Assembly (NCBI RefSeq): GCF_000381265.1
Contig: NZ_KB906273.1
Span: 37,920-101,919 of the forward strand
Direction: 5' to 3'
Origin: Curvibacter lanceolatus ATCC 14669
GTDB lineage: Bacteria; Pseudomonadota; Gammaproteobacteria; Burkholderiales; Burkholderiaceae_C
Length of the DNA: 64,000 bases
The notes beneath the pieces were generated by a model. That model was not told the origin of the DNA and made no database searches. It saw nothing but the letters and a program-made list of their open reading frames with translations. This document shows positions 25,240-37,047 of this stretch, piece after piece (positions within the stretch are counted from its first letter, which is position 1; every line of letters starts with the position of its first letter). A program made the translations under genes and the position numbers.

Positions 25240-27776
25240 GCCATCAGCCCCACCTTCGTGGGGAACACGCGACCACTTGGTGCCTGTGGTCGTGGTACTT
25301 GAGCAGAGGGGCATCCCCATGCCCGTGGGGAACACGTCTGGTATGGCCTGGGCATGTGGCCCGAGTTCGGTTCATCCCCACGCCCGTGGGGAACACGCTG
25401 GACTTCCCGGACGAATTGATCATCGACAACGGTTCATCCCCACGCCCGTGGGGAACACCTCATCGCATTCTCCGGTAAAGACACAAAAGCCGGTTCATCC
25501 CCACGCCCGTGGGGAACACACCGATGCCGCTGGCTACGCCGGCCTCAACACCGGTTCATCCCCACGCCCGTGGGGAACACAATCGAAGTGTGAGCAAGTT
25601 CGGGATGCGCTGTGGTTCATCCCCACGCCCGTGGGGAACACGAAACCTCCAGGGGTGAGAGCTCGCGGGGGATCGGTTCATCCCCACGCCCGTGGGGAAC
25701 ACAGCGCCGCAATGATTGCAGGCATAACTACCCCCGGTTCATCCCCACGCCCGTGGGGAACACCTCCAGAAGTTATTTTCTGGAAACACATTCAGCGGTT
25801 CATCCCCACGCCCGTGGGGAACACGACAAGGGCTCCCAGACGACTGAGCGCGACGGCGGTTCATCCCCACGCCCGTGGGGAACACAATTCGGCCCAGGCC
25901 GTCGCCAATTACCAGCTCGGTTCATCCCCACGCCCGTGGGGAACACAAACCATGCAGGGGTCCACATCAGACGCCTCCCGGTTCATCCCCACGCCCGTGG
26001 GGAACACACTGTTGGCGGCACCGCCTGGCACCCGGCCCACGGTTCATCCCCACGCCCGTGGGGAACACCCCGTCGAGGTGCAGGGACAGATCACCTGCTA
26101 CGGTTCATCCCCACGCCCGTGGGGAACACACTACGTGCAGCGGGACATCCGAGGCAATCACCGGTTCATCCCCACGCCCGTGGGGAACACGTGATAGGCG
26201 CCCCAGTGCCAAATCAATTGGGCGGTTCATCCCCACGCCCGTGGGGAACACGCGAAACGGCAGAAATCATTCTTGGCGAAGAGCGGTTCATCCCCACGCC
26301 CGTGGGGAACACGATTTTTGCCCTGGCGTCATCGGTCCAGAAACCGGTTCATCCCCACGCCCGTGGGGAACACTGTCAGCATCCCCCGGCGCAGGCTGGA
26401 GGCGTCGGTTCATCCCCACGCCCGTGGGGAACACACCCAGCAGTCGGGTGCCAAAAGTTCCAGCACCGGTTCATCCCCACGCCCGTGGGGAACACTAGCC
26501 GATGCCCCCGCGCAGTTCCGGCAGCGGCGGTTCATCCCCACGCCCGTGGGGAACACGATCTTGGCGCGCCTGTTCGCCCTCACGGCGGCGGTTCATCCCC
26601 ACGCCCGTGGGGAACACACGTGCCGAGCGCACCAGCAGGTGCGGTGCTGCGGTTCATCCCCACGCCCGTGGGGAACACGGCCCGAGCGCGTTTGGTGTCG
26701 GCGACGATGGCGGTTCATCCCCACGCCCGTGGGGAACACCGCCTGGGCTGGACCGCTGACCTGGTCGACGCCGGTTCATCCCCACGCCCGTGGGGAACAC
26801 GGTGATCTGATACAGCAGATCCAGAACGCTGGCGGTTCATCCCCACGCCCGTGGGGAACACTGCCGGGCTTGGTTGGCCTGTTCGGTCGTCACCGGTTCA
26901 TCCCCACGCCCGTGGGGAACACATCGGCTGCCACCCCTCTGCCAAAGCCTCTGCCGGTTCATCCCCACGCCCGTGGGGAACACAGCATCACGCCTGTGCC
27001 GATGCCACACAAGTTCGGTTCATCCCCACGCCCGTGGGGAACACGGCCTGAGCTGATGAAGGCGCTCAATGCTCGTCGGTTCATCCCCACGCCCGTGGGG
27101 AACACGCGCTGCCGGTATAGTGGACGGCCTCACATTGCGGTTCATCCCCACGCCCGTGGGGAACACCAGGTGCCGGGGTGATTTCCACCCAGGCCACGCG
27201 GTTCATCCCCACGCCCGTGGGGAACACATCACGCGCATCACTCAGGGCCTTGCGGGCATCGGTTCATCCCCACGCCCGTGGGGAACACATCGCCAATTGC
27301 GATGTGCTCCATTTTGGGCGCGGTTCATCCCCACGCCCGTGGGGAACACAACCGAAGCGCAAGCTCCAACATTTACGTTGGCGGTTCATCCCCACGCCCG
27401 TGGGGAACACATCAGGGCCTGGCCATCCCGGTCGGCCCCAGCCGGTTCATCCCCACGCCCGTGGGGAACACGTGGCGATGGACGCCGATGACGTGGCCGA
27501 ATACGGTTCATCCCCACGCCCGTGGGGAACACAGATTCCGCGCTGACGGTGTAGGTCAGGCGGCCGGTTCATCCCCACGCCCGTGGGGAACACTTCTCGG
27601 CCATGGCCTCCGCCGTGGCTGCAGCCGGTTCATCCCCACGCCCGTGGGGAACACCATGATCGAGTCGCCAGCGCAGCCGACGCTCGCGGTTCATCCCCAC
27701 GCCCGTGGGGAACACGCTTGCAGGTCGCGCGCGATGCCGCCGGCATCCGGTTCATCCCCACGCCCGTGGGGAACAC
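25240..27776 (-). CRISPR. Type I-E CRISPR array, 42 repeats / 41 spacers, transcribed on the minus strand
   Basis: Forty near-identical 29-bp repeats start at 25368 and recur every 61 bp to 27748, giving 32-bp spacers; the first of these spacers is 33 bp. Two degenerate repeats precede them: 25307-25335 (4 changes) and 25240-25268 (8 changes), with a 38-bp spacer between. In crRNA sense the repeat starts GTGTTCCCCAC, has loop GGGC and ends GTGGGGATGAACCG, the E. coli-type I-E layout with a 6-bp hairpin and 8-nt handle ATGAACCG. The degenerate copies mark the old end, so the leader is on the right, next to cas2. Protein-like translations of this stretch are artefacts of the repeat. Confidence 0.98.
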
Positions 27777-27840: not shown

Positions 27841-29075
<1,235 letters not shown>

Positions 29076-29087
29076 AGGGCGGCACCC

Positions 29088-29771
29088 TCAATCGCGCAGC
29101 GGCTTGACCAACAGCAGGCCGCAACCGAAAGCCTTGCTGTGCCCCAGGCCCTGGAGCAGTGCCGACTGCAGCCGATCAGGGTCTTGCACCTGGGCCAGGC
29201 CCTGGTAGTCGATGGACGAAAAGGCCACGCCCCCTTTTCTGCGGTTCAAGCGCTGGGGCTGGTAGTTGTCTTGCCTCACGCTGTCGGGCTGCACCAGCAG
29301 CCCGGCGCTTTCGGCACGCTGCAGCAGCCAGCCCAGGGCGGCCTTCTCCATGGCTTGCGGCAAAGGCTCGTCCGCAGGGGGGTGGCGCTTGACGTCCATC
29401 AGCACATCATGCCGGCGCGACTTTTGCCCGGCTTCGCCCCGGTTGACGGTGGGGTTGGCGCGCAAATCAAATTGCAGCCAGGTACCCGCGGGCAGATGGG
29501 GCTGGTAGGGTTTGGTGGCCACCTCGAAGACCGCAGGATCGACCACGGGGGCACGGGCCGAGACCACATAGAACGACAGCCCACGCAGTTCGTCGCCCAG
29601 GCGCCGGAACACAAAGTCGCGTGGAAGGCCATCGCCCGGGAACAGCCGCCAGACCAGCGCGTGGTCACGGTAGGCATCGCCATGCTGCAGCGCTTCATGC
29701 CACCAGGGGCTTCGGCTGACGGGCTCAAGCACCCGTACTTTCGAGAAGTAATGCGGTGTTGTTGTCGTCAT
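29088..29771 (-). CDS. cas6e: Cas6e (CasE/Cse3) pre-crRNA endoribonuclease
   Basis: 227 residues (E. coli 199). It cleaves the repeat hairpin and stays bound to the 3' stem of the crRNA in Cascade. The glycine-rich loop near the C-terminus, 'QGLGHSKAFGCGLLLVKPL', is the Cas6e hallmark, and 'DAYRDHALVWRLFPGD' holds the expected catalytic His at about residue 37. Its ATG overlaps the cas5e stop (ATGA), indicating coupled translation. Its substrates here are the main array and probably the pseudo-repeat RNA at 34033-34122. Confidence 0.95.
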   Translation of the reverse strand: MTTTTPHYFSKVRVLEPVSRSPWWHEALQHGDAYRDHALVWRLFPGDGLPRDFVFRRLGDELRGLSFYVVSARAPVVDPAVFEVATKPYQPHLPAGTWLQFDLRANPTVNRGEAGQKSRRHDVLMDVKRHPPADEPLPQAMEKAALGWLLQRAESAGLLVQPDSVRQDNYQPQRLNRRKGGVAFSSIDYQGLAQVQDPDRLQSALLQGLGHSKAFGCGLLLVKPLRD

Positions 29772-30544
29772 GCGGCCTCACTCCCCACCAGATGCACCCA
29801 CTCACGTCGGGGTGCGAACTGCCAGCGCTTGCGCGACTGGGGTTGGTCGTGGCGCAAGGTGTCAAAGCTGGCGCTCATGCCAGCCTCCATGCCGTCTTCC
29901 CAGTAATAGCGGGCGGCTTGGGGCTTGGGCTGGAAGGCCTTTTGGTCATCGCGGTTCGGCCAGGGCTGCACGGGCTGCAGCGCGTCGGTCAAGGCCAACA
30001 GCGATTGGGGCAAGGCCTGGTCCAAGGCCTCGCGCACCGAAGCGGCCTGGACGATCTGGGGCGCCAAGGGCAAGGCAGGCGGGCACGACTTGCGGCCCAG
30101 GTAGAGCGGGAACGAAGGGGTGCGCAAGGCCTGCGCCAAGCTGGGCAGGCTGTGGGGCGCGTTGGGCTGGGCTTGCAGTGCCACCACAGCCAGGCTGTCG
30201 CAGCGGTATTCACGGCTGGACAGCAACGTGCCCTCTCGCTCGGGATTGGCCAGCTCTTGCCGCCGGGTTCGAAACACTTCCTTGCGCAGTGGCTGCCCCA
30301 CGCCCATGGTGTGAAAGTCGCGCAGCGGCGAGCCGGCGCATACCAGCTTGATGCCAAAGCGATAGCCCTGGGCCATGGCCTGCTGGCCCGCTTCGTCGCT
30401 GCGCTCCACGCCCACAGCCGCCGCCAGCAAGCCAATGAGCGCCGATTTGGAGGGATGCATCGCCGAGTGCCTCGACTCGCCCACCGCAATTTCGCCCCAG
30501 CTGGCCAGAGGGCCATACAGGCGCATCAGCAGATAGTCGGTCAT
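29768..30544 (-). CDS. cas5e: Cas5e (CasD) Cascade subunit
   Basis: 258 residues from the ATG at 30544 (GGAG 9 nt upstream); a GTG two codons earlier directly abuts the cas7e stop. 'YLLMRLYGPLASWGEIAVGESRHSAMHPSKSALIGLLAAAVGV' matches the Cas5e N-terminus. Cas5e caps the 5' handle of the crRNA and contacts Cse1. No catalytic residues are expected. It overlaps cas6e by four bases. Confidence 0.95.
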   Translation of the reverse strand: MTDYLLMRLYGPLASWGEIAVGESRHSAMHPSKSALIGLLAAAVGVERSDEAGQQAMAQGYRFGIKLVCAGSPLRDFHTMGVGQPLRKEVFRTRRQELANPEREGTLLSSREYRCDSLAVVALQAQPNAPHSLPSLAQALRTPSFPLYLGRKSCPPALPLAPQIVQAASVREALDQALPQSLLALTDALQPVQPWPNRDDQKAFQPKPQAARYYWEDGMEAGMSASFDTLRHDQPQSRKRWQFAPRREWVHLVGSEAA

Positions 30545-30550
30545 GGGCAC

Positions 30551-31585
30551 TTACTCCGCCGTCACAAAATCGATCAGCTCGGCCACACGGCCTTGGCCCT
30601 GCAGCACATCGATCTCGCTGCGGCTGTCTGCGCAGGGGCCGTAGACCTTGTCCATGTTGTCGCGCACACGCTGCAGGGCCCCGATGGCTTCTTGCGCATA
30701 GTCGACGCCTTGCACCGGCTTGACATAGGCCAGGGTCAGGGCCCGGGGCTGCTGCGCGCCTTTTTCTGCCAAGGCGTAGTGGGCATAGGCCCGGCTGGCA
30801 TAGCTGTTTTGCTTGCCGCTGGGGCCCACTTTAAGGGCGGCTTCAGTCAGGGCACGCAGGGCTTTTTGGGTCAGGGCCTCGTCGTTGCCGAGGTTCTGTT
30901 TGAGCCGGTCGCGGTCAATGCACACGTACTGGTAGAACACGGCTGCGGCAAACCCACTGTCGCCAATGTGGGCTGCCCCCGGATCGCTGAGGTTGAGGTC
31001 ATCCACCGCAGTGAAGTAGTCGTCCTCAATCGCAGACGCGTGCACCCCGATGGCATGGGCCACCTGCACGGCGGCGTCACTGTTGTGCTCGGTCTTGGCC
31101 GCGAGCATGCGACCGAACATGGCGATGTCCACCGCGCTTTGGGTGTGCAGCAAGGCGTCCAGTTCGTCGTCTGTGGGCGCGCGCTTTTCCTGGGCCAGGG
31201 TGTTCACCAGGGCCTTCAGAGAGCCGAGTTCTTCAGGCGCCACATGCACCAGTTGCTCGATCTCCAGGGGCTTGTCTTTCTTGACCGCGCCATACACCTT
31301 GGCGATCTGGCCCGCCCAGTCTTTGGCCTGCTTGTCGGCCACACCTGCGGCCAGCAGTTGCTCATAGGCTGTGACCCCCAGCAGCTTGGTGCGCGAGCCG
31401 ATCGAGCCGGCCAACTGCTGCTGAAAAATCTCGGACGTGCGCCAGGCCCGCTTCAGGCTTTGCGAAGACACCCGCAAACGCTCCACCCCGCCCAACCGTG
31501 CGGTCTTGGGCTGCCCGGAGTCGTCTCGGTTGAGGTTGGCCGGGGGGTAGGAGATCAGCAGGTGCAGTTGAACAAAACGGGTCAT
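30551..31585 (-). CDS. cas7e: Cas7e (CasC/Cse4) Cascade backbone subunit
   Basis: 344 residues from the ATG at 31585, chosen because AAGGAGG lies 8 nt upstream; the open frame upstream belongs to shadow reading of cse2. 'RFVQLHLLISYPPANLNRDDSGQPKTARLGGVERLRVSSQSLKRAWR' is the Cas7e signature: the RNA-binding RRM-like palm with the thumb insertion that kinks every sixth crRNA base. Six copies form the Cascade spine. That geometry explains why a mismatch at guide position 6 is tolerated. Confidence 0.96.
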   Translation of the reverse strand: MTRFVQLHLLISYPPANLNRDDSGQPKTARLGGVERLRVSSQSLKRAWRTSEIFQQQLAGSIGSRTKLLGVTAYEQLLAAGVADKQAKDWAGQIAKVYGAVKKDKPLEIEQLVHVAPEELGSLKALVNTLAQEKRAPTDDELDALLHTQSAVDIAMFGRMLAAKTEHNSDAAVQVAHAIGVHASAIEDDYFTAVDDLNLSDPGAAHIGDSGFAAAVFYQYVCIDRDRLKQNLGNDEALTQKALRALTEAALKVGPSGKQNSYASRAYAHYALAEKGAQQPRALTLAYVKPVQGVDYAQEAIGALQRVRDNMDKVYGPCADSRSEIDVLQGQGRVAELIDFVTAE

Positions 31586-31650
31586 GGCGAAGGCCTCCTT
31601 GAAATGATTCGAATTGATGGGACTCGGATGAGGTGATGAGGTGGGCCAGC

Positions 31651-32307
31651 TCAGCCCTGGGTATCGCTCGGGTCGTTGGCCAGGTCGTCGGCCACCGCGG
31701 CCCGGTCGCGAGCCGGCAGGAAGTAGTCGTGTGCCCAGTGAAAACGCACCCCATGCGCCACGCGAAGGTGGGCCTCGCCCTGCTCGCGCTGCCAGGCCAG
31801 CAGGTCGTCGGCGAGTTGCACCACATCGGCCTGGCCATTGAGCAACTTGACGGCGCGTCGCCACTGCGTCAGCAGTTCATCGGCCCCCTGGCTGCGTTGC
31901 AGGCGGGTGAAGCGCAAGGCGCTCATGCGGCGCCGATCGGGACTGATTTTTTCGCCCAAGTCCACCGCAAGGGTGTGGCGCTCGGCAGGCTCTGATTTCA
32001 CCAGGGCCAACACACCAGCCACCAGCGCGATCTGCTCATAGGTGGCCGGCACATCGGGCAGCAGCCAGGCTTGCTGTTCACCACGATCTCGGATCAGACG
32101 GTGGGCCAGCACATGCACCGCAGGTTCCAGCAAGAGCTCATCCACACCTGGGCACCGGCGCAGGCTGGCCCGTGCCCCCCGCCCCAGCCCCCACAGGTCG
32201 GGCGGCAAGGGTTGGGGCTGATCTGCACTCTGAGGCTGCAATGCCTGCCACCACAGCTTCACGGATTGTTGTTGAGCCGGGTTCAGGCTCAGGGTTCTGG
32301 GTTTCAT
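31651..32307 (-). CDS. cse2: Cse2 (CasB) Cascade small subunit
   Basis: 218 residues, longer than E. coli CasB (160). All-helical and basic: 'LPPDLWGLGRGARASLRRCPGVDELLLEPAVHVL' and 'KISPDRRRMSALRFTRLQRSQGADELLTQWRRAVKLL' carry the expected Arg/Lys surface for the displaced strand. A Cse2 dimer forms the belly of Cascade and locks the R-loop. Its ATG overlaps the cse1 stop (ATGA); cas7e follows after 65 bp. Confidence 0.94.
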   Translation of the reverse strand: MKPRTLSLNPAQQQSVKLWWQALQPQSADQPQPLPPDLWGLGRGARASLRRCPGVDELLLEPAVHVLAHRLIRDRGEQQAWLLPDVPATYEQIALVAGVLALVKSEPAERHTLAVDLGEKISPDRRRMSALRFTRLQRSQGADELLTQWRRAVKLLNGQADVVQLADDLLAWQREQGEAHLRVAHGVRFHWAHDYFLPARDRAAVADDLANDPSDTQG

Positions 32308-33887
32308 GTCCTCTCCTGGTTCACCGGGATGTCTGCCAGCCGGGCAAGCTCCCAGAGTTTTTTCATGGGCTTGGCGTTTTTCAGGTCTTTGAGCAGCTTG
32401 GTGCGCGCCTGCACAGCGGGCTCATGGCAAAGTGCATCCTCCGAGCCCACCCAGAAATCAAACAGATTCAAGGCGCTGCGGCGGGTCAGCAACAGCCATT
32501 GGCGCGCCAGCGGCGCAACGCGCAGGTCCACATCCTCGGGCTCCAGCGACGCCGAAATCAACACGGCCACCAGCTCGGCCAGCACCGCATAAAAGCCCGC
32601 CTCGGTGCCCTGCCAGAAGCTTTGCTGCACCGCCGGATCTGTGGCCGCATCAGCCGGGCGTTTGAAGCGTGCGGCCTTGACCTGGGCGCTGAGGGCCTTG
32701 GCCGACTCGGTGGCCACCTCCAAACATTGAATCAAATGGCGCACCAGTGCAGCCTGCTGCTCAGGCGGCACCGCATGCAGGGGCAAGAGGCTGTCGTACC
32801 AGCAGCGGGCCTTCATGTTGTCCATGTCGTAGCCCTGGCACCACAAGCGCAGCGGCAGCTTCAACTTTCGGTCGAAGGTGGTTGCCACGACCTTCGCCGC
32901 CTGAGGCATTTGGTCTGCACGCCCCAGGGCCAGCCCCAGCCAATGCCGGTAGCCGATGCCGCCGCGCTGGCCTTTCACCGCCAGGGGGGGCTTCTCGTGC
33001 TTGGGGTCGAGGTTGTAGGGCGAGAGCGGATGCTGCCAGGCGCCGGTGTAGTTGGTGCCACCATGGCGGGTTCGGTAATGTTGAAACAGGCGCACCCCTG
33101 AAGCGCCGCACACCGAGCAGTCGCCCTGGGTGCAGGTGCTGGCGTCCAGCCGCAGGCGCCGGGGCATGCCCCAATAGGCTTGCAAGGGGTGGGCCTTTTC
33201 GGGCGTGGTGTCGCCCACGCCCTGGGCATCGCTGGTGCGGGTGGGCAGCAACCAGGGCAGCACCTCGCCCCATTGGCGGGGCTCGGGGTAGTTCAGTTCG
33301 TCACTGGGCAAGACATTGAGCCAGAGCCTTTGCCACAGCGTGGCATCCTCCTGGGCCGGCACCAGCAAGGTGGTGAGCGGGCCGCCGCCCCGCACCGAGG
33401 TGCGGATGCCACGCCCACCCGGCGGCGCATTGAGTTGCAGAGTGAGCACGGCCAGGGCGGCGCAGTCTTCACAAAGGCCTGGATGGGACTGGGCTTTGTT
33501 GAAGTGCCGGTTGCTGTCCGAGCCCGCATCGATCAGCAGATCCAGCACCGGCAGCTGATGGGCATCGGCAGGCAGGGCCAGGTCTTGCAAAAACGCCGGC
33601 CCTTCGTTTTCAAGGGCAAAAGCGTCTTGGTAAGGGGCGAACGCCGCGGCCAGGGTTTCAGCGCTGGGTGGCTGATTCCAGCGCGTGCGCCACTCGCGCG
33701 CGCTGCTGGGCGCATAAAAGGTTTGGAGGAGGCCAATCAGAAACTGGTAGGCCGCGCTGCGGAAATCGGGGCGGGGGGCATGGAGGTCCAGCAGCGCCGG
33801 ATCACCCACCCTGCAAGGTGAAATACGGCAGAGGCCCCCAAGGCGATCGCGCGCACCGATCCAAGGCGCTGTGACCAAGTTGCTCAT
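32304..33887 (-). CDS. cse1: Cse1 (CasA/Cas8e) Cascade large subunit
   Basis: 527 residues (E. coli 502). It recognises the PAM and recruits Cas3. The N-terminus 'NLVTAPWIGARDRLGGLCRISP' and 'AAYQFLIGLLQTFYAP' are typical. Two CxxC pairs ('GLCEDCAA' and 'DCSVCGASG') would form a structural zinc site as in the Thermobifida and Thermus proteins. The C-terminal part is the four-helix bundle. ATG 33887 has AGGGAG 8 nt upstream. It is the first Cascade gene, and the 284 bp before it contain the self-matching mini-CRISPR unit, so its expression is probably the regulated step. Confidence 0.95.
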   Translation of the reverse strand: MSNLVTAPWIGARDRLGGLCRISPCRVGDPALLDLHAPRPDFRSAAYQFLIGLLQTFYAPSSAREWRTRWNQPPSAETLAAAFAPYQDAFALENEGPAFLQDLALPADAHQLPVLDLLIDAGSDSNRHFNKAQSHPGLCEDCAALAVLTLQLNAPPGGRGIRTSVRGGGPLTTLLVPAQEDATLWQRLWLNVLPSDELNYPEPRQWGEVLPWLLPTRTSDAQGVGDTTPEKAHPLQAYWGMPRRLRLDASTCTQGDCSVCGASGVRLFQHYRTRHGGTNYTGAWQHPLSPYNLDPKHEKPPLAVKGQRGGIGYRHWLGLALGRADQMPQAAKVVATTFDRKLKLPLRLWCQGYDMDNMKARCWYDSLLPLHAVPPEQQAALVRHLIQCLEVATESAKALSAQVKAARFKRPADAATDPAVQQSFWQGTEAGFYAVLAELVAVLISASLEPEDVDLRVAPLARQWLLLTRRSALNLFDFWVGSEDALCHEPAVQARTKLLKDLKNAKPMKKLWELARLADIPVNQERT

Positions 33888-33977
33888 GATTCGACTCCCT
33901 GAGTGTCGTTTTATGATGAAGCCGCTTTCCGAGCAGGTCAGGCTTCAGTGGGTCATAGCTTATTGAAGATCTTGTTG

Positions 33978-34012
33978 ATCGCATAGGTCTGCCCAAGCCA
34001 AATAGCACACTT
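33978..34012 (-). promoter_or_regulatory. PAM-flanked partial protospacer upstream of cse1, predicted Cascade binding site
   Basis: On the minus strand AAG (34012-34010), a canonical type I-E PAM, is followed by a 32-nt site (34009-33978). Its first 18 bases match the spacer of the neighbouring mini-CRISPR except at positions 6 and 9; later positions match only sporadically. The type I-E seed (1-5, 7, 8) is fully matched. The site lies 91-125 nt before the cse1 ATG, where bound Cascade could block initiation or elongation of the Cascade operon. The function is inferred. Confidence 0.7.
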
Positions 34013-34032
34013 CCTGACCTACGGCGAGTTGT

Positions 34033-34122
34033 GATCCCCCCTCTGTTGAGGGGATGAACCGTGTGCGATCTGGCTTGGGGTCGCCCAACCCGGTGGTTCC
34101 CAGCGCTCGCTGGGATTTTGGG
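34033..34122 (+). ncRNA. Single-spacer degenerate CRISPR unit encoding a putative crRNA-like regulatory RNA
   Basis: Layout on the plus strand: pseudo-repeat 1 (34033-34061), 32-nt spacer (34062-34093), pseudo-repeat 2 (34094-34122). Both pseudo-repeats align without gaps to the 29-nt array repeat, with 20/29 and 16/29 identities. Pseudo-repeat 1 keeps the last 12 bases (GGGGATGAACCG), including the whole 8-nt 5' handle. Its hairpin becomes CCCCTC-TGTT-GAGGGG, swapping an A-T pair for T-A. Pseudo-repeat 2 keeps GTTCCC and forms CCCAGC-GCTC-GCTGGG, with two compensated pairs; its own handle has decayed, as expected when nothing follows it. Orientation is opposite to the cas genes and the main array. 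This resembles the crRNA-like regulators (CreA/CreR type) that steer Cascade to cas or toxin promoters. Transcription is not demonstrated. Confidence 0.8.
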
Positions 34123-34171
34123 GCTCCTGTCGGAGCCTTCAGGGCTTGGAGTTTTCGATAACACCGTGGTG

Positions 34172-36937
34172 CTAACCACACAAGCCCAACACCGGGTCGT
34201 ACCGCAACAGCTTGCGACGCCCCTGCGCATCGAGCACCCAGCCCTCCAGCACGCCATCGGCACCAGGGGCCAAGGGCAAGACGGTGGCATCGCCCTCCAG
34301 CAAGCGGTTTTGCGAACGCAAAGCGGCCAGCCCTGCTTCAAAGCGCTGCAGCCATTCAGGCGCCAGGGCCTGCAGGCCGGTGGCCCGCAGGCGCAGCGCT
34401 GACGACTCCCAGGCGTGGTCCTCATGAGCACGCAAAGGCTGCAACACAGCGGGGTCGCCGGCTTGGCCCATCACCGCCAGGTACACCGTCAAGGTTTCAT
34501 CGCCCAGGCGGGTGGGCAGGCGCGTGTCTTCATCCCATTGGGCGCTGCTGTCAGTGCAATAGCCTTTGTCGAACTGCAGGGCATTGAACTGGGCCTGGCT
34601 TTGATGGGCCAGGTCTTTGCCCTGCTGCTCACGCGAGGCGCGTTGCAGGGCCGAGGGAATGGCCACATCCTCCGCGCCATACACCGCCTCAACCAGGCTG
34701 CGCACGGCCCCCGCCTCGCCCACCTGGCCGGGGCTGACGATGGCGCCCGCCGCCCGCAAGGCGCGTGCACCCAACCAGAGCTGCCCCACATCGGGGTAAA
34801 CGTAGCGCGCCTGGGGGAACAGCGCCGCATACCAGTCGGCCTCCGGCTCCGCCAGGTCCTCGGGCGCCAGCAGGTGCAGCACCGGAGCGGGCCGGTGCTC
34901 TTGCCCATCAGTGGCCAAACGCCCGTCCACTTCGCGGGCATGGCGCTGCAAGCGCCCCGCGCGCTGGATGACCAGGTCGATCGGAGCCAGATCGGTCACC
35001 ATGGCATCGACATCAAAGTCGAGGGATTGCTCCAGCACCTGGGTGCCAATCAGCACCTGGCCTTGGCGGCTGGAGGCCTCCGCGGCTTTGCCGAAGATGG
35101 ACAACACCCGGTCTTCAATATCGAGCCGGTCACCCATGGCAAAACGGCTGTGAAACAAATGCACGCTCAACTCGGGCGCTGCGGCGCACAAGGCCTGGTA
35201 GGCACGGCGTGCATCGCCCACGGTGTTGCGAATCCAGGCCACACAACGCCCCTGCCGCGCCGCTTGCACCAGCAGGGCCACCGCCTGCGCTTCGTCGTGC
35301 ACAAATGCCACCTGAACCCGACGCACCAGTTGAGGCCGTGTGGCCACTGCCGCCACCGAGCAAGACCGCCCGACCTGGGTGACCAGGGGGTAACGGGCAT
35401 CGGCAGGCCAGTCCTCTGCGGGCAGGCCCAGCCCGGCGCGGTAGGCGTTCATCAGCTCGCCGCGTGTCGAGGCCGGCAAGGTGGCCGACAGCAAGATCAT
35501 GCTGCCACCTTGGCGGGCATGGGCCCGCAACAACCGCTTGAGCAGGGTCAGCATGTAGGGGTCATAGGCATGCACTTCGTCCACCAGCAGCACCTTGGCG
35601 CTCAGGCCCAGCAAGCGCAACGACTGGTGCCGCGCGGGCAGCACGGCCAGCAGGCATTGGTCCAGGGTGCCGACGCCCACATCAGCCAGCAAGGCTTTCT
35701 TGCGATGATCTGCCAGCCATTGATTGCATTGCACCGACGCCGTGCTTTCCGAGTGCCCGTAGGCTTGGTCTCGGCCTTGCTCCGCTTCTTGCAAAAGGCT
35801 TTGCCGAAAATCGGCCATCAATTGTCGAGCCCCATGGGCAAGGATCAGCGAGGGCCGCGCCGTGGCCGCATACAGGCGCTGGTACACCTCACCTACCCGT
35901 CGGTACATCTGGTTGGCGGTGGCCATGCTGGGCAAGGCGAAATACAAGCCCTGCGCCAGCCCCGCTTCCATCAGGCGCTGCGTGAGGATCAGGGCAGCCT
36001 CGGTTTTGCCTGCGCCGGTCACGTCCTCCAGCAAAAACATCTGCGGTCCGGGCTGCAAGGGCAGCTCGGCTCCGTGCCGCTGCAAGGGCGTCGGCGGGTT
36101 CAGGTAGGGGAAGAGCGCCAGAGGCTGCGCCGCCCAGTGGCGCACCACTTGCGCCTGCAAGCCTGCCTGTTGAACCGCCTGCTCAGCCTGGGGCAGGGCC
36201 TGTTCGCTCCAATACGAGTGCAGGTTTGGCGCAGCGCTGACATAAGGGAAGTGGGCCTGATTCGAGCCCAACCAATCCGCCAGCACCGCCACGCCCGCCA
36301 GACGCCAACTGTGGCGGCGCAGTGTCCGCTCCTGCGGGTCGGTGAATTCATCTCGCAACAAGGCACTCAGATCTGCCGGCAACAACAGCGGCAGCAGGGC
36401 CTGCACAAAGGCCTGGGCGGCCCGCAAGTCTTCCTGCAAAAAGAAACGACGCCACTCCAGCGCCAACAGGCCACCAGCCTCGCTCTCCAGCGGCGGCTTG
36501 CCATGGTGGCCGAACACGGCCTTGACCCAGACCGACCAGAAGGCATCATCCGAAAAAGGCAGGGCCTGCTGCGGAAAATCAGACGCCAAGGCCTGCGTCC
36601 ACAACAGCCAACCCAGGGTGTCGTGCCGCAGCTCATAGCGTTTGCGCGGGTCTGCGCTCACCAGCTCTGGCGACAGCCCGGGCACCAGCCCCTGAAAAGC
36701 TCTGGCGAATTTTCCAAGATCATGCAAGGCCAGAAAGAACACCGCCAATCGTTCCACTGTCGGCAAAGGCCAGGCCAGATCGTCGGCCAGAGGGGCCAGT
36801 GAGAACTGAGGCAGTTGCATCAAATGATGACCACACGCAGCCACATCGAGGCTGTGCAAGGCCAGCAGATGGAAGCGTTCTGGCCCCTCTTGAGCGGAAG
36901 AGGCTTTACCCCAGTACGCGAAAAAGTCCGCGCCCAT
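34172..36937 (-). CDS. cas3: Cas3 helicase-nuclease, type I-E
   Basis: 921 residues from the ATG at 36937, which aligns with E. coli Cas3 ('YWGKSS' near the start). HD nuclease: 'HSLDVAA' and 'ALHDLGKF' (His72-Asp73). SF2 helicase: Walker A 'EDVTGAGKTEAA' (Lys311), 'LLVDEVHAYD', 'LLSATLP', and 'QVLEQSLDFDVDAMVTDLAPIDLVIQRAGRLQRH' (motifs V/VI). It unwinds and degrades DNA 3' to 5' after Cascade recruits it. The ATG has no good ribosome binding site of its own. It overlaps the stop of a 36-codon ORF as TGATG, suggesting translation by coupling. It is separated from cse1 by the 284-bp regulatory region. Confidence 0.97.
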   Translation of the reverse strand: MGADFFAYWGKASSAQEGPERFHLLALHSLDVAACGHHLMQLPQFSLAPLADDLAWPLPTVERLAVFFLALHDLGKFARAFQGLVPGLSPELVSADPRKRYELRHDTLGWLLWTQALASDFPQQALPFSDDAFWSVWVKAVFGHHGKPPLESEAGGLLALEWRRFFLQEDLRAAQAFVQALLPLLLPADLSALLRDEFTDPQERTLRRHSWRLAGVAVLADWLGSNQAHFPYVSAAPNLHSYWSEQALPQAEQAVQQAGLQAQVVRHWAAQPLALFPYLNPPTPLQRHGAELPLQPGPQMFLLEDVTGAGKTEAALILTQRLMEAGLAQGLYFALPSMATANQMYRRVGEVYQRLYAATARPSLILAHGARQLMADFRQSLLQEAEQGRDQAYGHSESTASVQCNQWLADHRKKALLADVGVGTLDQCLLAVLPARHQSLRLLGLSAKVLLVDEVHAYDPYMLTLLKRLLRAHARQGGSMILLSATLPASTRGELMNAYRAGLGLPAEDWPADARYPLVTQVGRSCSVAAVATRPQLVRRVQVAFVHDEAQAVALLVQAARQGRCVAWIRNTVGDARRAYQALCAAAPELSVHLFHSRFAMGDRLDIEDRVLSIFGKAAEASSRQGQVLIGTQVLEQSLDFDVDAMVTDLAPIDLVIQRAGRLQRHAREVDGRLATDGQEHRPAPVLHLLAPEDLAEPEADWYAALFPQARYVYPDVGQLWLGARALRAAGAIVSPGQVGEAGAVRSLVEAVYGAEDVAIPSALQRASREQQGKDLAHQSQAQFNALQFDKGYCTDSSAQWDEDTRLPTRLGDETLTVYLAVMGQAGDPAVLQPLRAHEDHAWESSALRLRATGLQALAPEWLQRFEAGLAALRSQNRLLEGDATVLPLAPGADGVLEGWVLDAQGRRKLLRYDPVLGLCG

Positions 36938-37047
36938 CAGACGCGGCTTCTTTGAGCCCGAGGTTCGGGCCCAGCCCACAATGCAGAAGCCTCTGGCAGC
37001 CCCAGGCACAGCTTCACATGCTGATCGCCCACAAAAAACCATCTCAT
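36937..37047 (-). CDS. Short ORF translationally linked to cas3 (possible leader peptide)
   Basis: A 36-codon reading frame begins at the ATG at 37047, 9 nt after a near-perfect AGGGAGG ribosome binding site, the best one around cas3. Its TGA overlaps the cas3 ATG (TGATG). The peptide starts MRWFFVGDQHVKLCLGLPE and resembles nothing I know. Either it is a leader whose translation delivers ribosomes to cas3, or the ribosome binding site is a relic of a former start. Coding status is inferred from the ribosome binding site and overlap only. Confidence 0.45.
   Translation of the reverse strand: MRWFFVGDQHVKLCLGLPEASALWAGPEPRAQRSRV

Follow-up and report, generated by a model that had tools for sequence, protein, structure and literature searches.

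The cas locus and a unit between cas3 and cse1

The window, by which we mean the whole 64,000-nucleotide stretch of Curvibacter lanceolatus DNA analysed here, carries a type I-E locus with NCBIfam matches for cas3, cse1, cse2, cas7, cas5, cas6e, cas1 and cas2. From gene order and strand we infer that the genes from cse2 to cas2 would share one operon with cse1, a gene that is present in two of the nine genomes of the genus. In the gap between cas3 and cse1, antisense to these genes, lies a degenerate repeat, a 32-nt spacer and a second degenerate repeat (34033-34122, plus strand). The features are as follows.

34172..37042, minus strand: cas3 (TIGR01587 and TIGR01596, both over cut-off)
34122..34137, plus strand: hairpin GGCTCC-TGTC-GGAGCC, just after psi-repeat 2
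34094..34122, plus strand: psi-repeat 2, 16/29 to the array repeat, stem CCCAGC/GCTGGG kept, handle lost
34062..34093, plus strand: psi-spacer, 32 nt, with a guide stretch (positions 1-18) matching the cse1 leader
34054..34114, plus strand: predicted mature CreR, 61 nt (8-nt handle, 32-nt spacer, 21 nt of psi-repeat 2)
34033..34061, plus strand: psi-repeat 1, 20/29 to the array repeat, the best non-array match in the window
34010..34012, minus strand: PAM AAG, adjoining the target
33978..34009, minus strand: target, 32-nt protospacer, non-target strand (matched part 33992-34009)
32304..33887, minus strand: cse1 (cas8e/casA; TIGR02547, E 1.1e-84), the first recognised gene downstream of the target
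27841..32307, minus strand: cse2, cas7, cas5, cas6e, cas1 and cas2, with an NCBIfam match to each
25368..27776, minus strand: CRISPR array, repeat GTGTTCCCCACGGGCGTGGGGATGAACCG, period mostly 61 nt

An earlier, sequence-only reading had described a one-spacer degenerate unit on the opposite strand of this gap, with repeat identities of 20/29 and 16/29 around a spacer of exactly 32 nt, which is also the spacer length of the array, since the array period is mostly 61 nt. The repeat alignment, together with the NCBIfam matches to cas3 and cse1, upholds that description, and recomputation returned the same values. Psi-repeat 1 forms a 6-bp stem, CCCCTC/GAGGGG, followed by the intact 8-nt handle ATGAACCG at 34054-34061, the handle that psi-repeat 2 has lost, as can be seen in the sequence and as had been claimed. 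Compared with the array stem CCCCAC/GTGGGG, one pair is swapped in psi-repeat 1 and two in psi-repeat 2, with a loop of 4 nt in both copies; the swaps are read from the sequence, with folds computed as well, and are the compensatory changes noted earlier. With two diverged repeats and one spacer that partly matches its own chromosome, the unit does not qualify as an active immune CRISPR array.

In type I-E systems, as known from the E. coli enzyme, Cas6e cleaves 3' of each stem, and the predicted ends of the 61-nt RNA would hold if it does so here. The hairpin at 34122..34137, a possible 3' end of the transcript, was not called as a terminator by the terminator scan. The only terminator-like site in the leader lies at 33943-33968 on the plus strand and has an 11-pair stem and a T-rich tail (shuffles give 0.3); since it points towards creR and precedes the target, the creR promoter would sit between this site and psi-repeat 1.

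Taken by itself, the repeat identity is a weak argument, because four chance matches within the 64 kb reach 19/29, one below psi-repeat 1. The unit is set apart from chance by its AAG-flanked target, matched at 16/18 within the leader of cse1, together with a like anatomy in 43 of 117 non-duplicate regions from relatives. The leader-distal end of the array also has two decayed repeats, at 25240-25268 (21/29) and 25307-25335 (25/29), with altered handles in both. Exact GGGGATGAACCG occurs 41 times in the host genome, and 40 of these copies fall on the contig that holds the window, one in the unit at 34033-34122 and 39 at the array; a candidate second CreR elsewhere in the genome (L133) was rejected, there being no recognisable repeat around its GGGGATGAACCG.

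The match in the cse1 leader and its counterparts in relatives

AAG is the standard type I-E PAM, and directly behind it, at 34009-33992 on the minus strand, lies a stretch that agrees with psi-spacer positions 1-18 in 16/18 cases, the mismatches being at 6 and 9. The PAM is separated from psi-repeat 1 by 20 nt, and the first 17 nt of the target end 105 nt ahead of the cse1 start. The sequence-only reading had proposed a crRNA-like regulator of the CreA or CreR kind, naming no target, and the AAG-flanked site supports that proposal. The next-best matches of the psi-spacer within the 64 kb are two at 14/18, both without AAG; when the 145-nt leader was shuffled 100,000 times, even 12/18 behind an AAG (12/18 being the level tabulated) came up only 83 times; and AWG plus TGTGCNATNTGG has one exact match in the 6.8-Mb host assembly, the target upstream of cse1. 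Curvibacter gracilis (L003/L016; Cse1 94% identical) has an identical spacer whose target match is 18/18, and the two targets differ in the two bases at positions 6 and 9, of which position 9 belongs to the seed. A first impression that C. gracilis had lost its array was dropped, as the site is a run of N with three repeats alongside.

Relatives were surveyed at 131 loci gathered around cse1 relatives, chosen among the matches listed by similarity to Curvibacter-type Cse1, which after dropping two (L079, L128) and 12 duplicates gave 117 regions. A unit was called when an AAG-flanked seed match of at least 9/10 (positions 1-5 and 7-11) was found up to 1000 nt upstream of cse1. Of the 117 cse1-upstream regions (up to 1000 nt), 85 have a handle that scores 7/8 or better on one strand or the other, and 43 have the AAG-flanked seed match (10/10 in 32 loci, 9/10 in 11), the other 74 being without a unit by the seed and AAG rule; because the loci were picked by Cse1 similarity among the matches listed, 43/117 is no census and should not be taken for a prevalence. 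In all 43 loci the unit is antisense to cse1. When the 43 guides were tried on the regions of other loci, close relatives included, 20 of 4,988 pairs reached a score of 9. The named loci among the 43 come from Beta- and Gammaproteobacteria, along with two Desulfobacterota-type MAGs (L039, L078). The AAG rule left out L021 and L085, whose best seed matches lie behind ATG and AAA. A first pass with 600-nt regions and a seed score of at least 8 had found 39 loci; moving to 1000 nt and at least 9 loses L118 (score 8) and gains L039, L054, L060, L066 and L080. In L013 and L078 one guide has two AAG-flanked targets of at least 9 in its own leader, which are possible double operators. Gap length was dropped as a predictor of creR, since its 70-codon ORF rule counts small or chance ORFs and the gaps of loci with and without it overlap.

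A separate selection by handle and stem only, blind to the target and within 600 nt upstream, yielded 38 candidates, which lie in 37 loci and of which 35 are antisense. When any PAM was allowed, a seed match of at least 9 was present for 32 of these 38, behind AAG in 30, ATG in one and AAA in one. The six that do not are L017, L023, L118 (8, behind AAG) and the sense-strand candidates of L039, L094 and L127; separate antisense matching units were found in L039 and L094 in the 1000-nt run. In L017 and L023 the cse1 leader contains a handle and stem on the antisense strand, with no seed match of at least 9 behind an AAG; the target may have been lost there, or a different gene may be regulated.

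The sequence-only reading would have taken stems that are not maintained in related genomes as a refutation; the stems are maintained. Over the 43 loci, which were chosen regardless of stems, 95% of copy-1 stem pairs are kept, with at least 5/6 pairs in 40 of 43 (G-T counted in both figures), compared with a mean of 83% and a highest value of 87% in 1000 controls in which 3' arms were dealt among loci with the loop re-chosen; a cruder shuffling control, without re-choosing the loop, gave 74%. Copy-2 stems have 6/6 pairs in 40 loci and 5/6 in three, a figure for which the search itself scores pairing.

The pairing of guide and target has a profile of its own. Matches are found in 42-43 of the 43 loci at positions 1-5, in eight at position 6, in 39-43 at 7-11, in 11 at position 12, in 37-38 at 13-14, in 21-27 at 15-17 and in 6-14 at 18 to 26, pairing being at chance from position 18; positions 6, 12, 13 and onward had no role in selecting the loci. 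Cascade leaves every sixth guide base unpaired, and the 6-nt pairing rhythm, as judged from these alignments, is that of Cascade. The type I-B CreA, in the available part of its description, likewise uses 1-5 and 7-11 for pairing and leaves 6 and 12 unpaired (PMC8501985). For E. coli, the portion available of one study states that AAG and five seed bases are enough for Cascade binding, that no more than an 18-bp match is needed for maximal affinity, and that two protospacers mismatched only at the far end gave no interference (PMC5904413). Since pairing ends at about 17-18, Cascade would therefore bind firmly without licensing Cas3 to cut its own chromosome, and a pairing that skips 6 and 12 and falls to chance from 18 is the footprint to be expected of Cascade binding short of interference.

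Guides and targets also change together. Among the 43 loci, 50 pairs share a Cse1 identity of at least 60%; their guides show 214 seed differences, and at 193 of them both partners fit their own targets; at Cse1 identities of at least 80% and at least 90% the values are 44/49 and 11/13, all of them partly built in, because each locus was selected for a 9-10/10 match, and drawn from pairs that are not independent. The telling point is that fast-diverging guides each find a matching AAG-flanked site within the same leader. All seed differences are matched in L067/L082 (3/3; Cse1 94%) and in L040/L061 (7/7; 84%), and 2/3 are in the Bordetella ansorpii records L032/L034 (93%), where the seeds changed and the targets are on opposite strands; the weakest pair is L076/L105 (63%), with 1/3 matched.

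Two guide lengths

The length of the psi-spacer was sought over 12-53 nt with no preference set, and the 43 loci gave 20 nt (12 loci, Halomonas faecis among them), 21 (5), 22 (3), 30 (1), 32 (17) and 33 (5), that is, a short class of 20-22 nt with 20 loci and a long class of 30-33 nt with 23, the window included; none of the 43 has 23-29 nt. That there are two guide lengths is unexpected. On a 42-locus Cse1 tree (of the 43, L125 was too short and was omitted) the length class changes 10 times, at least eight of them on well-supported branches, and since only 12 of 500 label shuffles are as low as 10 changes, the label is somewhat clustered; an earlier 37-locus tree had 11 changes, at least seven on starred branches.

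Twelve nucleotides correspond to two Cas7 footprints. One may tentatively suggest, with a little less than even confidence, that type I-E CreRs come in two lengths about 12 nt, or two Cas7 subunits, apart: the short ones would build a natural small Cascade with about four Cas7 subunits, which binds and represses without recruiting Cas3, and the long ones would lose pairing after 17-18, these being convergent routes to a pure repressor of the own operon. Shortened E. coli Cascades are reportedly still able to interfere, which would argue against such a "repression-only" reading. In type I-B, as far as the available text of one report goes, spacers of 24 nt or less repress without interference or primed adaptation, 20 nt being weaker than 21-24 (PMC10989794). 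We met no description of two CreR length classes in the literature covered, which was little searched for shortened spacers, and claim no priority. The two classes raise the question whether cells build shortened Cascades for regulation.

As regards folding of the psi-spacers, 14 of 38 at least equal the best 10% of their own shuffles, compared with 14% of 300 sampled array spacers and 12% when the first 20 nt of array spacers are used; the array-spacer sample was filtered to 30-34 nt and hence is of no use as a length control. In some psi-spacers the seed pairs with the 3' part of the spacer, and such hairpins may weaken CreR against crRNAs. The enrichment is mild over the 38 loci, and the psi-spacer of the window has none (0.19 of its shuffles are as low).

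A putative CreR and competing explanations

The unit at 34033-34122 is very probably a CreR gene. It would be transcribed into an RNA that Cas6e cuts to 61 nt and that is loaded into the type I-E Cascade; the guide would then take Cascade to the AAG-flanked site at 34012-33978, upstream of cse1, and RNA polymerase would be blocked at the start of the cse1 operon or en route into it, so that cse1-cas2 are repressed. With pairing ending near 17-18, Cascade would be bound firmly and the cell's own chromosome left uncut by Cas3. On the published CreR model, the repression would be lifted when array crRNAs or anti-CRISPRs compete for Cascade or disable it. CreR is favoured over CreA because the target is the leader of the cas operon and not a toxin promoter.

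The mode of repression, promoter block or a road-block between cas3 and cse1, can be put forward here only as a conjecture, since the window is without a convincing box: the standard scan called no sigma-70-like promoter in 33850-34200, and in a looser scan of the window the best cse1 promoter candidate is weak (8/12, 36 nt beyond the protospacer). Nor need Cascade binding alone repress, because in E. coli off-target binding through seed matches was without effect on local gene expression, as the available text has it (PMC5904413). It could then be that Cascade does bind the site and that its main effect is to stop read-through from cas3 into cse1, or to limit creR from an overlapping divergent promoter, an outcome that we consider improbable. 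The lack of a convincing cse1 promoter in the scans would suit it, as would the place of the target between cas3 and cse1, 20 nt from psi-repeat 1. A creR-sense -10-like box lies 24-45 nt ahead of the handle in 31 of 37 loci (in 6-nt bins at 26-43 nt there are 12, 19 and 7 matches, bins elsewhere reaching up to 15), the window having no such box at that usual distance, and in L005, L067 and L082 the creR promoter overlaps the target. Against it, in L013, L072 and L078, where boxes are recognisable, the PAM and a cse1-sense promoter's -35 overlap, and published CreRs repress through cas promoters, according to the part available (PMC13131331). In the 31 loci with the target on the creR strand, -35-like boxes in the cse1 sense are most frequent at the PAM (14) and within the target (13), the former partly built in because the invariant CTT gives two of the six -35 letters, and -10-like boxes lie 2-7 nt (25) and 20-25 nt (13) past the target. 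A small, mostly hydrophobic ORF of about 32-64 aa lies between target and cse1 in L057 (9867-9977), L028, L034, L045, L059, L074, L083 and L105; none of the eight matches Pfam at E 0.1. Placed there, it would come first among the genes that CreR controls, and its product may be an accessory protein or else a guarded toxin. These ORFs, and an anatomy and seed (1-5, 7-11) like those of CreA in the portion available (PMC8501985), speak for a CreA antitoxin: the cse1 leader would hide a small toxin gene or RNA, kept repressed by the guide, and the cells would depend on Cascade. We think this very unlikely for the window, where none of the three cse1-sense reading frames between target and cse1 contains a membrane-type ORF, and the only open one is non-hydrophobic and runs into cse1; this check covers protein toxins, and an RNA toxin could escape it.

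Two further explanations would dispense with Cascade or with function altogether, and we hold each to be extremely unlikely. A decayed CRISPR remnant that resembles a regulator by chance might be suspected from psi-repeat 1, which is barely over the chance maximum of 19/29, yet PAM, seed match and strand recur in the 43 of 117 regions and in the target-blind test, and the stems are kept in relatives. By these comparisons the remnant is already refuted, unless the recurring matches are artefacts. In the window, spacer and target are inverted relative to each other, as they would be in a DNA or RNA inverted repeat acting as a regulator site or attenuator; however, the two copies are direct repeats in 33 of the 43 loci, the orientation of the target changes at least seven times on the Cse1 tree while AAG and seed stay constant, and pairing gaps at 6 and 12 suit Cascade, not a palindrome.

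With the target located, what had been a suggestive relic becomes, on the CreR reading, a concrete autoregulatory loop of a type I-E system, one that can be put to the test. The 43 loci, moreover, form a natural record of how much pairing survives at sites where Cascade is predicted to settle on the cell's own chromosome and leave it intact: positions 1-5 and 7-11 pair, 13-17 do so less strictly, and 6 and 12 are free.

The primary CreR paper is said to date from 2023. The sequence-only reading had hinted at novelty, and that hint proves weaker than it was put: a type I-E CreR is already published, in the text available (PMC13131331), and the antisense position upstream of cse1 recurs among relatives. 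No description of Curvibacter, CRISPR-Cas and type I-E together was found in the literature covered. The same text reports CreR autorepression for types I-B, I-E and V-A (PMC13131331), and a 2025 review, in its available part, gives the model with competition by crRNAs and relief by anti-CRISPRs (PMC12737573). Among other known RNAs, the phage-encoded Racr anti-CRISPRs resemble the unit as solitary RNAs that mimic a CRISPR repeat; they are viral and inhibit CRISPR-Cas, whereas the unit lies among cas genes and has a spacer and a PAM-flanked target (as far as the text available goes, PMC10651486). CreA of the CreTA modules shares the order psi-repeat, psi-spacer, psi-repeat, the canonical PAM and the seed at 1-5 and 7-11, and differs in that it represses the toxin creT, in the portion available (PMC8501985), whereas the target in the window precedes cse1, with no toxin seen, and pairing there reaches 18 with two mismatches. 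The likeness to CreR (I-B, I-E, V-A) is that of a crRNA-like unit with a partial match upstream of its own cas operon, in the same subtype I-E (PMC12737573 and PMC13131331, parts available). Here too the unit lies outside the array and has degenerate repeats and a Cas6-type hairpin, and its complementarity to the leader of its own cas operon is partial, PAM-flanked and of the seed type. The window's unit is from Curvibacter, antisense in the cas3-cse1 gap and known here from its sequence, and it fits as a further case of CreR, not a separate kind.
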